Below, in pieces: positions 8,216 through 14,657 of a stretch of DNA of 64,000 nt. Below the pieces are notes generated by a model. That model was not told the origin of the DNA and did not search any database. It saw nothing but the letters and a program-made list of their open reading frames with translations. This DNA is from Thiorhodospira sibirica ATCC 700588. Its GTDB lineage: Bacteria; Pseudomonadota; Gammaproteobacteria; Ectothiorhodospirales; Ectothiorhodospiraceae. Location: the NCBI RefSeq assembly GCF_000227725.2, contig NZ_MU255056.1, positions 2,220,511 through 2,284,510 of the forward strand, read 5' to 3'. Within the stretch, counting starts at the first letter, position 1; the number at the start of each line of letters is the position of its first letter. The translations under genes were made by a program, and so were the position numbers.

Positions 8216-9073
8216 TCAGGCCAGCAAGGTCGCCTTGAGTTTTTTCATCGCGTTATTTTCCAGCTGGCGAATCCGTTCAGCCGACACGCTGTATTGCGCC
8301 GCCAACTCATGCAGGGTCGCTTTTTCATCACCCAGCCAGCGCTTGGCGAGAATATCGCGGCTGCGCTGATCCAGATTGTCCAGCGCACGATGCAGACGTT
8401 GTTGATAATGCTGCGCCCACTCGGAGTGCTCCAGACTCAGCGCCGGATCGGCCTGCTCATCGGTCAGCCATTGGGCCGGGGACAAATGCTGCGCATCTTC
8501 CTGCTCTGGATCAGGATCAAAGCTGACATCCTGCCCGGCCAAGCGCGATTCCATCTCCATCACCTGCGCCTCCGAAACTCCAAGATCGGCGGCCACCGCA
8601 GCCACTTCATCCTGACGTAGCCAGCCGAGGCGCTGCTTGGCACCCCGCAGATTGAAAAATAATTTACGCTGCGCCTTCGTCGTGGCCACCTTGACAATGC
8701 GCCAATTGCGCAGAATAAATTCGTGAATCTCGGCGCGAATCCAATGCACCGCAAAGGAAATCAGGCGCACGTTTACGGATGGATCAAAGCGTTTCACCGC
8801 TTTCATCAAACCGATATTGCCTTCCTGAATCAGATCACCCAACGCAAGGCCATAGCCGGAATAGCCACGGGCGATATACACCACAAAGCGCAAATTGTGT
8901 AATACCAAGGCCCGCGCAGCATCCAGATCATTGTGTTCACGCAACCGCGTCGCCAGGTCCTGCTCCTGTTGGGCATCCAGCACCGGTAACTGATACACAG
9001 CGTGCATATAACTGTCCAGATTACCGACTGGCACCGCCAAATGGGCTTGCGTGCGGCTCAGGGCTGTGCTCAT
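8216..9073 (-). CDS. rpoH: heat-shock sigma factor sigma-32
   Basis: 285 residues from the ATG at 9073; the longer frame to 9124 lacks family sequence. Region 2 is visible as LVLHNLRFVVYIARGYSGYG and GDLIQEGNIGLMKAVKRFDP. The RpoH box QRKLFFNLR, which distinguishes sigma-32 from other group 3/4 sigma factors, follows, and region 4.2 ends the protein (YSVSAERIRQLENNAMKKLK). It directs RNA polymerase to heat-shock promoters for chaperones and proteases. A perfect CIRCE operator lies 88-114 bp upstream of the start codon, which suggests HrcA control of the heat-shock sigma factor. Confidence 0.96.
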   Translation of the reverse strand: MSTALSRTQAHLAVPVGNLDSYMHAVYQLPVLDAQQEQDLATRLREHNDLDAARALVLHNLRFVVYIARGYSGYGLALGDLIQEGNIGLMKAVKRFDPSVNVRLISFAVHWIRAEIHEFILRNWRIVKVATTKAQRKLFFNLRGAKQRLGWLRQDEVAAVAADLGVSEAQVMEMESRLAGQDVSFDPDPEQEDAQHLSPAQWLTDEQADPALSLEHSEWAQHYQQRLHRALDNLDQRSRDILAKRWLGDEKATLHELAAQYSVSAERIRQLENNAMKKLKATLLA

Positions 9074-9160
9074 AAACGACCTCCGCCTCTCAGATAACTT
9101 AAAAAACCATTGCAAACAACGCAATCGGCGCGCTCAGCGCATACCGTATAACGCGCTATA

Positions 9161-9187
9161 TTAGCACTCACTGGCAAAGAGTGCTAA
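9161..9187. promoter_or_regulatory. CIRCE operator (HrcA binding site) upstream of rpoH
   Basis: TTAGCACTC at 9161-9169 and GAGTGCTAA at 9179-9187 form a perfect 9-bp inverted repeat with a 9-base spacer, an exact match to the CIRCE consensus recognised by the HrcA repressor. It lies upstream of rpoH, which is read leftward from 9073; no groES or dnaK gene adjoins it. The other neighbour, tRNA-Gln, is transcribed toward this site and ends in its own terminator, so rpoH is the only plausible target. Confidence 0.92.
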
Positions 9188-9283
9188 TAAAATCCAAAGT
9201 TCCCTCATTGCCCACTCACTACACATCCGCCGTACTGCGCGGTTCATTGCATGTTGGTTTATGACATTGAACCGACAAAGCCC

Positions 9284-9315
9284 CAAAATAAAAAAGGCCA
9301 CGTATTGACGTGGCC
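9284..9315 (-). terminator. Rho-independent terminator after tRNA-Gln
   Basis: Read on the minus strand, GGCCACGT and ACGTGGCC (9296-9315) form a perfect 8-bp stem with a 4-base loop, followed by a run of T residues (9284-9295). It lies just beyond the 3' end of tRNA-Gln and should end the rplM-rpsI-tRNA transcript. Confidence 0.88.
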
Positions 9316-9323
9316 TTGGGTAC

Positions 9324-9397
9324 TGGCTGGGGGACTAGGATTCGAACCTAGGTTGACGGAGTCAGAGTCCGTAGTCCTACCGCTAGACGATCCCCCA
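9324..9397 (-). tRNA. tRNA-Gln (anticodon CTG)
   Basis: On the minus strand a 74-base cloverleaf begins TGGGGGATCG and ends with an encoded CCA at 9324. The anticodon stem-loop is ACGGA-CTCTGAC-TCCGT, giving anticodon CUG (reads CAG codons). The T arm is CTAGG-TTCGAAT-CCTAG. The 5' TGGGG start is typical of glutamine tRNAs. It lies 8 bp after rpsI on the same strand and may be cotranscribed with it. Confidence 0.96.
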
Positions 9398-9405
9398 AAA
9401 ATTGA

Positions 9406-9798
9406 TCAGCGCTTGCTGTACTGCGTTGCGCGACGGGCTTTGCGTAGACCCACTTTCTTACGCTCAACTTCACGCGCATCGCGGGTCAGGAAACCGGCGG
9501 CGCGCATTTTACCACGCAGGGTTTCGTCATACTCAACCAGAGCACGGGCGATCCCCAAACGGATGGCACCAGCCTGACCGTTAGCGCCACCCCCGGTGAC
9601 GGTCGCATAGACATCAAAACAATCCTGGGATTCAGCCACATGAAAGGGTTGACGTACGACCATGCGTGAGGTTTGACGCCCGAAGTATTCATCCAGCGGC
9701 TTGTTATTGACAATGATTTTGCCATCGCCTGGACGAAGGAAAATACGTGCAGCAGCGGTTTTACGTCTGCCGGTGCCGTAGTTTTGGGAAAGAGCCAT
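9406..9798 (-). CDS. rpsI: 30S ribosomal protein S9
   Basis: 130 residues, exactly the usual size. The N-terminus [20 protein letters not shown], the central [19 protein letters not shown] and the basic C-terminal tail ending in YSKR are all conserved; the tail reaches the ribosomal P site and contacts tRNA. It follows rplM by 18 bp in the universal L13-S9 operon. Confidence 0.98.
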
Positions 9799-9816
9799 GG
9801 TGCTTTGTTATCCTGA

Positions 9817-10245
9817 TCAGAGTTCCAAGGGTTGCGGCTGCTGCGCGGTGTGTTTGTGGTCAGCGCTTGCAAAGATTTTCAGCTTGCGCATCATTGCACG
9901 CCCCAAGGCATTTCTGGGCATCATCCGCTTAACCGCAAGCTCCAGTGCCCGCTCCGGCGCACGTTCCATCAACTGGCTGAAGTTCATCGACTTCATATTA
10001 CCCACATAACCACTATGGCGGTAATACATTTTGTCGTTGGCCTTGTTGCCCGAGACGCGAACCTTAGCCGCATTGACGACCACAATGTAATCACCCGTAT
10101 CCACATGCGGCGTGTACACCGGCTTGTGTTTGCCACGTAGGCGCGTTGCGATTTCGCTGGCAAGCCTGCCGAGCGTTTTGTCGCTGGCATCGACCAAAAA
10201 CCAGTCACGTTTGACTTCAGCGGGTTTTGCGCTAAAGGTTTTCAT
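9817..10245 (-). CDS. rplM: 50S ribosomal protein L13
   Basis: 142 residues, full length. [20 protein letters not shown], the GDYIVVVNA segment and the [22 protein letters not shown] segment are typical of L13, an early assembly protein of the large subunit. It is the first gene of the L13-S9 operon. The roughly 470 bp upstream is non-coding and should hold the promoter and leader. Confidence 0.98.
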
Positions 10246-10716: not shown

Positions 10717-13206
10717 TCAATGTCCGTGGTAATACGGCGTACCGGCGCCGAATTGTCCGGTTTTCGGGGTGTTTTTCGTGGCGGTGATGCAGTCCCTCAG
10801 TGCTTTTGCCAGTGCGGCGCCGGAGGGATAGCGTTTCTCGGGGTCTTTTTGCAGGCATTTGTTAATGATCAGGTTGATCAGTGGCCCAAGTTCCGGGCGC
10901 TGTTCGGTGATTGGTACATGCGGGGTTTGGGTGATTTGATAGACCAGCCCGGCCATGGTCTCGGCGGTGAAGGGGAGGCGGGCACAGAGCAGATAATACA
11001 GGGTCACGCCCAGCGAAAAGAGATCACTGCGCCCGTCCACCCGCTGCCCCGAGATTTGCTCAGGAGACATGAAGGCGGGGGTGCCGAGCACGGTGCCGGT
11101 GCGGGTTTTGCTGTTATCCAGCAGGCTGGCGATGCCAAAATCGGTGATTTTCACCACGCCGGTGTCCGGGTTATACATCACATTGGCGGGTTTGATGTCA
11201 CGGTGGATCACCTGCTGCTGATGGGCGTAATCCAGCCCGTCGGCAATCTGGGCGCCGATGTCTAACACCTCGGCAATGGGTAGCAGGGTTTCGACTTTGG
11301 TGTAGGTGTCCAGCGCCACGCCTTCGAGAAAATCCATGGCGATAAAGGCAAGATCATGCTCTTCGCCCACATCGTAGATGGTGACAATGTTTTTATGTGT
11401 AAGGCGCCCGGAGGCCTCGGCCTCACGGAAAAAGCGCGTTTTCACCTGATCCAGCACTTCCGGATCAAATTCACGGTTTAATGCCAAGGTCTTGATGGCC
11501 ACTTTGCGGCTGATCTTGGGGTCAGCGCCGAGATAAACCACGCCCATCGACCCGCGTCCCAGTTGTCGCTCAATCTGATAGCGCCCGATCATCGGTTTTT
11601 CCAGGCTTTTATCGTCAAGCACCAGATCTTTGCCGCGATGCTGATGCACGGTCTCGGGACTGAGTTTGGGGGCGCGGCTGTCTGCCAGGGGTTTGAGGCG
11701 CTGGAAACGCACCGTGATGTCGCGATAGTGCGGGTCCATGGCGCTTAAATGGCGGTATACCTCCAGGGCGCGGCCATACAGGCGACGCCGCTCAAAATCC
11801 TGTCCTAGCAAATAGAGCTGCTGCTTGATCATCTCATCTTGCTGGGTGCAGCGTTGATACAGTGCAAAGGCTTGCTCCAGTTGCCCCTGTGATTGCAGAT
11901 GGGCGGCGAGTTGCCGATATGCCTCGGATGCGTTGTTACGATCGGCATACAGGACCGCGTGGAGCCTTGCGTAAAGTTGCCAGCTTCCCAGCGCCAGCAG
12001 GATCAGCAAGGCCGGCAATAACAGCGGCACCATCACCTGTGCCCACAGCATCAGCAGGGCGCTGCACAACACCAGCAATAACGACACTCCCAGCGGCGCC
12101 AAGGCATCGGGCAGGCGGGTGTAATAGGACAGTGGCAGCAGTAACAAGGCCAGTGCGGTGGCGATGAGCAATATCCGTTGCAGTCCTTCGCCCCAGGCAG
12201 GCTGATATAGCACGGCCCCGGTGGTGGCGGTGTGTACGTTCCACGCGCTCCAGATGGCGGCAGGCAGAGTGAGGCCCTGATAGGTCAGATAATGCGCCTG
12301 TGGGCCGCTCACCGGGCCGATGATGACGCTACGATCGCGCAGTTGTGAGGGATCAATGCCGTGAGTCAATAAAGATTGCAGCGTGTGCGTTTTGAGCAAG
12401 CCGTAACGCGGATCACGCTTGGGCGACAGCGGACGTAACTCCATTGCGGCCCCCATTGGTAGCCAGTGCGAGCCTATACGCACTCCACGCCCTTGGCGGA
12501 ATTCAATATTTTGTGGTGTCTGGTGCAGGCTCAAGGCCGTCATCAATACATCAAATCCAGCCAACCAGTCGTGATCGGTTGCGATGAGGCCGGGAAAGCC
12601 ACGAAACCCAGGATAATAACTGCCGACGATGCCCACCCCGCTGACGGCGGTGAACAGAGGCTCTGCGGCGGTTGCAGGTTGCCAGCTCAATGGCATTTCA
12701 CGATGGGCGGTGAACAGTGGCCCAAGCCAGGGACTTGTGTACCAGGCGCGTTTGACAGGGCTGCTGAGGGGGGGCAGGACGCTGGCAATCGGGCTGTCTG
12801 AGGGGGTGGGGTGGGCATAAACGGCCAGCACTACCTGCCCATGTTGCTTGATCTGTGCAGACAGGGCCTGCTGTTCGGCGGGGGTGGCGTGTAAATGTAG
12901 CGGCAGATGCAGGCCGATCACCCTGGCTTGGGCCTGATGCAACACCGCCAGTGCCTCGGTCAGGCGCGCATAAGACCACAGTCCCTCCGTGTGTGCGTGC
13001 AGGTCACGTTCATCCAGCGCGATGAGCACAAGCTGCTCAGCCGCATCGGGGACGGGCAATAAGGTGCTGGTTATGGCAAAAAAACCCTGATCCAGCCCGC
13101 GCAAAGGGCCGTAACTTCCCAGCAATAACAACACGCCCAGCGCCACCACCATCACGGAGCGGGGGCTGTATGTTTGTAATTGCCTGAGCAGCGGTTGCTT
13201 GATCAT
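10717..13206 (-). CDS. CHASE2-domain transmembrane serine/threonine protein kinase
   Basis: 829 residues from the ATG at 13206 (MIKQPLLRQLQTYS). A first membrane helix (about 18-35) is followed by an extracytoplasmic CHASE2 sensor (about 40-350; core LVLIALDERDLHAHTEGLW), then three hydrophobic helices (about 370-460), a short linker with a repeat-like helical segment (about 470-520), and a complete eukaryotic-like kinase from about 540. The kinase has GRGSMG (glycine loop), VAIK (catalytic Lys), HRDIKPANVMY (near 667), DFGIAS (near 689) and MSPEQ. All catalytic residues are present, so it should be active. The ligand is unknown. A broken CHASE2-cyclase at 54.2-56.3 kb shares the same sensor plan. 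It is divergent from the DUF5610-like gene. Confidence 0.9.
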   Translation of the reverse strand: MIKQPLLRQLQTYSPRSVMVVALGVLLLLGSYGPLRGLDQGFFAITSTLLPVPDAAEQLVLIALDERDLHAHTEGLWSYARLTEALAVLHQAQARVIGLHLPLHLHATPAEQQALSAQIKQHGQVVLAVYAHPTPSDSPIASVLPPLSSPVKRAWYTSPWLGPLFTAHREMPLSWQPATAAEPLFTAVSGVGIVGSYYPGFRGFPGLIATDHDWLAGFDVLMTALSLHQTPQNIEFRQGRGVRIGSHWLPMGAAMELRPLSPKRDPRYGLLKTHTLQSLLTHGIDPSQLRDRSVIIGPVSGPQAHYLTYQGLTLPAAIWSAWNVHTATTGAVLYQPAWGEGLQRILLIATALALLLLPLSYYTRLPDALAPLGVSLLLVLCSALLMLWAQVMVPLLLPALLILLALGSWQLYARLHAVLYADRNNASEAYRQLAAHLQSQGQLEQAFALYQRCTQQDEMIKQQLYLLGQDFERRRLYGRALEVYRHLSAMDPHYRDITVRFQRLKPLADSRAPKLSPETVHQHRGKDLVLDDKSLEKPMIGRYQIERQLGRGSMGVVYLGADPKISRKVAIKTLALNREFDPEVLDQVKTRFFREAEASGRLTHKNIVTIYDVGEEHDLAFIAMDFLEGVALDTYTKVETLLPIAEVLDIGAQIADGLDYAHQQQVIHRDIKPANVMYNPDTGVVKITDFGIASLLDNSKTRTGTVLGTPAFMSPEQISGQRVDGRSDLFSLGVTLYYLLCARLPFTAETMAGLVYQITQTPHVPITEQRPELGPLINLIINKCLQKDPEKRYPSGAALAKALRDCITATKNTPKTGQFGAGTPYYHGH

Positions 13207-13460
13207 AAAACCATTTTCGGGGTGAGCAATCCGCCCATAATACAAAAGCTTTGGGATCGACGCTACCAGCCAGCGCGTCAAAGCCTGAAAACGCCGAGCG
13301 GTATTTCTGTGGCTGTGTTGTAGAAAGCTAAAGCACTCCTGCAAAAAACCTTCAGCTTTTTCTTTCCCGGCCGATATATCTGCCAAGCCGTTTTGAACAT
13401 TGCGCGTCTCGCGACGCATGACCGCCCGTCCAACACTTTGGCTTTTTCGCGGAGTCACCG

Positions 13461-14657
13461 ATGAACCCCCTATCCTTGCTATCCTCCTCGCCGCCCGGTT
13501 TGCCAAGCTTGGGTAAACGCCCGGCCCAGGCCCCCGGCCTTGGCATTGCACCCGGCTTGCAGCTGCGCCCACCGAATACGGCGTTCACGCCGCAGACGTC
13601 CCCGGCTGCTGCAGACCTCCTGGCAAAGGCTTATGAAAAACTGGCGACCCGCTTTCAACCGCCGCAAGCCGCACAGCATGAAAGCGCCGCGCCGCAGCCA
13701 CCCGCCACGGATTACTCCCCCGATGCCGTCGCACAGCGCATTCTGGGCTTTGTCGGCCAGCGCCTGGAACAGGAAAAAGCCAATGGCGCTGATGTGCAGC
13801 GCTTGCAAAACCTTTATGAGCAGGCCACCAAGGGCATAGCGCAAGGCTTGCAGGAGGCGCGGGGCGTGTTGTCCAAGGCCGGTGTATTCAATGGCGACAT
13901 TCATAAAAACTACACCGCCACGGAGGAAAAACTCAAAGAAGGTATGCAGGCATTGCATGAGCGTCTGTTTGCCCCACCGCCACAAGCGGGTGTGTCTCAG
14001 GGAATACATAAGCACAGCGCCCTGTATGAATCACGCAGCTTTAGCCTGGAGGTCAAAACCCAGGAAGGCGATGTGATCAAACTCAATGTAAGCAGCGCCC
14101 AGGGGCAGGCGATGACACACTCCGCCACGCAGCAGGCTGGGCTTGCCGGAATGCAGCTCAACATCGCGCAAAGCAGTGCCTTCCAGCTTGATTTCAGTGT
14201 CGAGGGTGATCTTAACGACAAAGAGCAGCGCGCCTTGACCGAGCTGTTTGGGAATATCAATAAGCTGGCGGATCGCTTCTATCAGGGCGATATCGAACAG
14301 GCTTTCAAAAAGGCGCTATCCATCGGCTATGACGGCAGCCAGATTGCCGGTTTTGCGCTGGAATTGCGCCAGACCCAGGTCTATCAGGCGACCGCCGCCT
14401 ATGGCAACGTGGCTAAACTCGGCAATTCGCAGGCCAGCGCCGCCCAAGGCTTCATGCCCTTGGCCGATTTTGCCCGCGACATCATGGGCACTGCTGAGCA
14501 ATTGCGCCAGAGCCAGACCTTCGAGCAACCTCATGCTATGCTCAACACGCTGCTCAAGGAAACCCTGCCGCTGCATGGCCAAGACAGCGAAGGCCCGAAG
14601 CAGCACCTTAATCAATTACTGGATACCCTGCTTAAACCCAACACACTCAGCACTTGA
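13461..14657 (+). CDS. DUF5610-like protein of unknown function
   Basis: 398 residues preceded by GGAG eight bases before the ATG. The first 75 residues are Pro/Ala-rich and probably disordered. Next is a helical block (about 85-165; RILGFVGQRLEQEKANGAD and AQGLQEARGVLSKAGVFNGD) that resembles DUF5610, and then a mixed region with SLEVKTQEGDVIKLNVSSAQ. The C-terminus is helical and Gln-rich. No signal peptide or membrane segment is evident. The function is unknown. Its 3' end overlaps the 3' end of the opposing sixA gene by 11 bp. Confidence 0.6.
   Translation: MNPLSLLSSSPPGLPSLGKRPAQAPGLGIAPGLQLRPPNTAFTPQTSPAAADLLAKAYEKLATRFQPPQAAQHESAAPQPPATDYSPDAVAQRILGFVGQRLEQEKANGADVQRLQNLYEQATKGIAQGLQEARGVLSKAGVFNGDIHKNYTATEEKLKEGMQALHERLFAPPPQAGVSQGIHKHSALYESRSFSLEVKTQEGDVIKLNVSSAQGQAMTHSATQQAGLAGMQLNIAQSSAFQLDFSVEGDLNDKEQRALTELFGNINKLADRFYQGDIEQAFKKALSIGYDGSQIAGFALELRQTQVYQATAAYGNVAKLGNSQASAAQGFMPLADFARDIMGTAEQLRQSQTFEQPHAMLNTLLKETLPLHGQDSEGPKQHLNQLLDTLLKPNTLST

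Follow-up and report, generated by a model that had tools for sequence, protein, structure and literature searches.

A CIRCE operator predicted to overlie a dual sigma70/sigmaE promoter of rpoH in Thiorhodospira sibirica and its relatives

Accounts of the bacterial heat-shock response often separate HrcA-type repression from sigma-32-type activation. A CIRCE palindrome ahead of the sigma-32 gene rpoH of Thiorhodospira sibirica raises the question of whether the two circuits meet at this locus and, if so, how HrcA would act on rpoH. In the stretch of DNA analysed (64,000 nucleotides in all; hereafter the window), positions 9161-9187 read TTAGCACTCACTGGCAAAGAGTGCTAA, with no mismatch to the CIRCE consensus TTAGCACTC-N9-GAGTGCTAA; the 27-bp element can also be written, mismatch-free, as TTAGCACTC-ACTGGCAAA-GAGTGCTAA. 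It is the sole CIRCE match in the window at ≤3 mismatches, where shuffled sequences lead one to expect 0.01. The sequence-only reading of this DNA had claimed an exact 27-bp symmetry placed before rpoH, and both points are confirmed, as the gene downstream is RpoH by TIGR02392 and lies 87 bp away (9074-9160). A TTG at 9124 was set aside as the start of rpoH because the ATG at 9073 is preceded by GGAGG and agrees with where RpoH relatives start. The probability that the palindrome arose by chance and is unlinked to HrcA is negligible: nothing was found in support of this explanation, the low expectation holds even at three mismatches, the other perfect CIRCE of the genome sits at groES, and conservation of the orthologous position in practice refutes it.

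Table 1. Features at and around the rpoH operator in the window.
Feature	Position	Strand	Description
rpoH, sigma-32	8216..9073	-	TIGR02392, 405 bits (cut-off 323); ATG 9073-9071 with GGAGG ahead
Candidate sigma70 extended -10, TGC-TAATAT (TGCTAATAT; TGCTAANNT)	9158..9166	-	Formed by the right CIRCE arm with three flanking bases
CIRCE, predicted HrcA operator of rpoH	9161..9187	-	Palindrome, 0 mismatches; minus-strand reading TTAGCACTC-TTTGCCAGT-GAGTGCTAA; kept before rpoH in relatives
Candidate sigmaE -10, TCTTT	9176..9180	-	Weak; end of CIRCE left arm plus three spacer bases; 16-nt spacing from GGAACTT
Possible sigma70 -35, TTAGCA	9182..9187	-	Poor; CIRCE left arm; 4/6 to TTGACA; 18 nt from TAATAT
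SigmaE-type -35, GGAACTT	9197..9203	-	7/7; begins exactly 16 nt before CIRCE; composite with 0 mismatches
Terminator-like hairpin after tRNA-Gln	9294..9317	-	Weak; 0.4 expected by chance per region
tRNA-Gln (CTG), upstream neighbour of rpoH	9324..9397	-	ARAGORN

The genome that carries the window (3.2 Mb, 98% completeness) was searched by pattern and by family for the repressor and for further sites. Absence of hrcA had been named beforehand as evidence against the HrcA link; the gene is present as an open frame (PF01628, 219.7 bits against a cut-off of 22.2, E = 6e-65), and grpE and dnaK come after it. Two CIRCEs in the genome are perfect, the one before rpoH and another 66 bp before groES, and a degenerate CIRCE with three mismatches stands directly before hrcA-grpE-dnaK. 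The remark that the palindrome lies before neither groES nor dnaK thus holds for 9161-9187 itself but fails genome-wide, and because groES and hrcA-grpE-dnaK have CIRCEs too, the rpoH site adds to the usual sites and does not replace them. Its position, 87 bp ahead of a heat-shock gene, is that expected of a CIRCE. Beyond rpoH, the predicted HrcA regulon also includes groES and possibly takes in hrcA-grpE-dnaK. The genome also encodes rpoE (TIGR02939, 294.8 bits against a cut-off of 236), adjoined by an ORF that appears RseA-like on reading its sequence.

On one side, in the interval 9324-10245, rpoH is neighboured by tRNA-Gln, rpsI and rplM; on the other lies a convergent YggS-like gene. In E. 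coli, by contrast, rpoH adjoins ftsYEX. Further along, a large minus-strand ORF (10717-13572) has a C-terminal part that resembles a serine/threonine protein kinase (GRGSMGVVYLG, HRDIKPANVMY) and a sensor-like N-terminal part that seems to span the membrane. With tRNA-Gln and the terminator-like hairpin ahead of it on the minus strand, the latter probably shielding it from upstream transcription, rpoH is probably transcribed from a promoter of its own in the interval from 9293 to ~9150. A consensus promoter scan of the minus strand across 9060-9450 returned no sigma70 promoter at threshold, whether at the CIRCE or elsewhere upstream. The two candidate sigma70 hexamers listed in Table 1 each match the consensus at 4/6, below the threshold of the scan, and TGC-TAATAT at 9166-9158 has the TGN followed by TANNNT of an extended -10. 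The predicted sigmaE arm is the less certain of the two promoter arms in this organism. The CIRCE would overlap all or most of both candidate -10 elements, and bound HrcA should therefore keep both polymerases off. Another outcome foreseen as damaging to the HrcA link, a palindrome far upstream of the start site with no effect, is improbable given that the predicted core promoter takes in the palindrome.

The gap between CIRCE and ATG is ~25-36 bp in most family members and ~50 bp longer in the window, which leaves room for another promoter inside it. It could be argued from this longer gap, and from the scan that found no promoter above threshold, that the main role of the CIRCE is in the rpoH mRNA, or that it is a remnant, the real promoter being located in the gap or upstream and HrcA having little effect. 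We regard this as very unlikely, as the operator is perfect and conserved, and conservation extends, in fixed phase, to the promoter bases beside it. The leader likewise speaks against such a role, its fold being unremarkable; an RNA thermometer or structured leader was rejected because the 87 nt fold no better than shuffled sequence (z = 0.97).

When rpoH sites were aligned on the CIRCE, two phased elements emerged. At 101 of the 103 distinct rpoH sites, a T stands three bases after the right arm and creates the sigma70 extended -10 TGC-TAANNT, mostly as TGC-TAAAAT (42), TGC-TAATAT (24), TAAACT (10) and similar forms. The same T follows the CIRCE at only 4/46 groES sites and 1/7 hrcA sites, and the comparison of rpoH (48/48) with groES gave a Fisher p of 1.7e-22, a value that treats the sites as independent although they share ancestry. 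The second element is the sigmaE -35 GGAACTT (≥5/7 bases), whose first base lies exactly 16 nt ahead of the CIRCE in 66/103 rpoH sites and at none of the 46 groES sites; a clear sigmaE -35 is lacking in the other 37 rpoH sites. At the usual spacing of 16 nt, the sigmaE -10 would consist of the final TC of the left arm and the first three spacer bases. TCNNA is found there in 59/66 sites with the sigmaE -35 but in 19/37 sites without it (p = 3e-5, on the same assumption of independence). The CIRCE consensus does not constrain the spacer, so the link between the two sigmaE elements speaks for sigmaE and not for HrcA. The groES CIRCE, by contrast, lies after a promoter of the type TTGAC...TATTA, whereas the arms of the rpoH CIRCE themselves supply the predicted -10 elements.

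These patterns also bear on whether the window site is a plain HrcA operator over a single sigma70 promoter, the sigmaE arm having decayed here to a -35 without a working -10. The presence of TGCTAATAT, whose T is almost invariant across rpoH sites, is in keeping with this explanation, as is the retention of TAANNT in rpoH sites that lack GGAACTT. Moreover, the window sigmaE -10 is only TCTTT, which keeps the TC without the final A of the usual TCNNA. However, GGAACTT is intact at 7/7 and at the exact offset, though the intervening bases are free to vary, and rpoE is present in the genome. We therefore consider a lone sigma70 promoter unlikely, if less so than an operator acting in the mRNA, and favour as the probable reading that at 9161-9187 an HrcA operator for rpoH overlies a compact dual sigma70/sigmaE promoter, which HrcA would occlude.

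A placement before rpoH had been presented as unusual for a CIRCE. This was not borne out: among the rpoH loci fetched from beta- and gamma-proteobacteria, 103 distinct ones have this arrangement, and a prediction for Geobacter sulfurreducens dates from 2004 (PMC545781), so the placement is both known and common. In the same family as the window genome, 46 of 47 genomes carry one to three CIRCEs at ≤2 mismatches, located before rpoH or before groES at the loci fetched. A survey of 80 rpoH loci from a species collection recovered the rpoH CIRCE in Methylocaldum, Dyella, Halothiobacillus, Nitrosomonas, Thiobacillus, Herbaspirillum and Pandoraea and in a number of gamma- and betaproteobacterial bins; among these 80 loci, none was found in Pseudomonas, Vibrio, Aeromonas, Enterobacterales or Haemophilus.

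The arms of the element vary in some lineages. A right arm of GACTGCTAA in place of GAGTGCTAA occurs in the rpoH CIRCE of L085, L090, L094, L097-L099, L104, L105, L112 and L114, and this change, shared by many family members, preserves the promoter TGCTAA. Luteimonas-type loci (L042, L049) have the corresponding mirror change in each arm (TTAGCAGTC...GACTGCTAA in L049). Such changes to GACTGCTAA and TTAGCAGTC may represent a co-evolved HrcA operator variant. In three further loci (L156, L158, L181), the rpoH CIRCE lacks GGAACTT and is preceded at a fixed distance by a common A+T-rich block resembling ACAGAAATTAAATTTA, possibly the promoter element of another lineage.

The composite pattern GGAACTT-N9-CIRCE was also searched, at ≤3 mismatches, in an even sample of 369 genomes from the class. 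It occurred in 163 of them. These counts, like those at the rpoH sites, carry no correction for common descent, but the composite spans 125 of 272 genera. A control with the spacer lengthened by three matched in 48 genomes, nearly always at three mismatches and never perfectly, and the reversed pattern matched in none of the 369; chance occurrence of the composite was rejected on these controls. Among 30 composite loci that were fetched, 28 lie beside rpoH, although one of the 28, L127, has its match in the wrong orientation, by chance. We detected hrcA in 155/163 composite-bearing genomes as compared with 113/206 of the others. Seven of the eight composite genomes without a detected hrcA are 62-88% complete. 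The eighth (G140) is 99% complete and has a composite rpoH site with a perfect CIRCE, which may reflect an assembly gap or a CIRCE retained after loss of the repressor.

Together, the presence of hrcA and a site that recurs in many families and tracks hrcA lend partial support to the earlier idea that rpoH is under HrcA, but that idea was incomplete, having missed the sigmaE -35 and the sigma70 extended -10. Because these share the operator, rpoH output would depend on more than HrcA. Both HrcA repression at rpoH and use of the predicted site by sigma70 and sigmaE are inferred here from sequence, and they suggest the following circuit. While GroEL is free, HrcA would be kept active, bind the CIRCE, cover both -10 elements and block both polymerases. 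Without HrcA, the right-arm extended -10 would let sigma70 polymerase start rpoH at about 9151, and under envelope stress sigmaE polymerase could start from GGAACTT-16-TC, at about 9170. Unfolded proteins that occupy GroEL would cause HrcA to fail and derepress groES and rpoH, whereupon sigma-32 would rise and activate chaperone and protease genes; recovery of GroEL would re-arm HrcA and close groES and rpoH again. In this negative feedback, HrcA would gate access to rpoH, so that full induction of rpoH by envelope stress would be possible only with HrcA off or weak. In Caulobacter, HrcA depends on GroEL to stay folded (PMC8119881), and in this organism GroEL is presumed to control HrcA.

The overlap of repressor site and predicted housekeeping promoter, usually with an envelope-stress promoter as well, recurs in many relatives and so looks like a widespread switch, little described so far, at which three stress circuits come together. 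One may go further and propose that, in beta- and gamma-proteobacteria that keep HrcA, the rpoH operator holds a sigma70 -10 in its right arm and a sigmaE -10 in its left arm, that HrcA gates both according to GroEL load, and that the sigmaE promoter of E. coli rpoH is a simplified descendant left after loss of hrcA; to this broader proposal we give slightly less than even chances. If the overlay works as predicted, HrcA repression and sigma-32 activation meet at rpoH in much of the beta- and gamma-proteobacteria, and the envelope-stress sigma factor feeds into the same element of ~46 bp. SigmaE induction of rpoH would then be predicted to depend on the state of HrcA, and E. coli rpoH control would gain a possible ancestral state that is concrete and testable. 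In the literature searched, which did not extend to Permina and Gelfand 2003, no description of a promoter overlay of CIRCE at rpoH was found. That work reportedly covers the same clades and both regulons, and a CIRCE before rpoH may be listed there already for some of these clades. What we put forward as new, on the literature searched, is the promoter-operator overlay and its beta- and gamma-proteobacterial spread, not the CIRCE before rpoH, which is already known (PMC545781).

Several known systems share parts of this arrangement. The closest published layout is in Geobacter sulfurreducens, where a perfect CIRCE was predicted before rpoH at -51 (Rodionov et al. 2004, PMC545781) alongside CIRCEs before groESL and hrcA-grpE-dnaKJ, the three HrcA sites tabled there. 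Geobacter sulfurreducens is, however, a delta-proteobacterium, and the prediction as tabled comes without a promoter overlay or a sigmaE link (PMC545781). The groESL operon of Caulobacter crescentus has the same operator and repressor family, with GroEL feedback on HrcA (PMC8119881). HrcA/CIRCE control of groESL differs in that the CIRCE follows the promoter in the groES sites sampled, whereas at rpoH it supplies the predicted -10 elements. GAACTT-16-TCNNA is also present in many CIRCE-less rpoH genes of enterobacteria and pseudomonads, and it corresponds to P3, the sigmaE-dependent promoter of rpoH in E. coli. P3 shares this motif without a CIRCE or HrcA; in the rpoH locus of T. sibirica, the predicted sigmaE -10 falls inside the HrcA operator.
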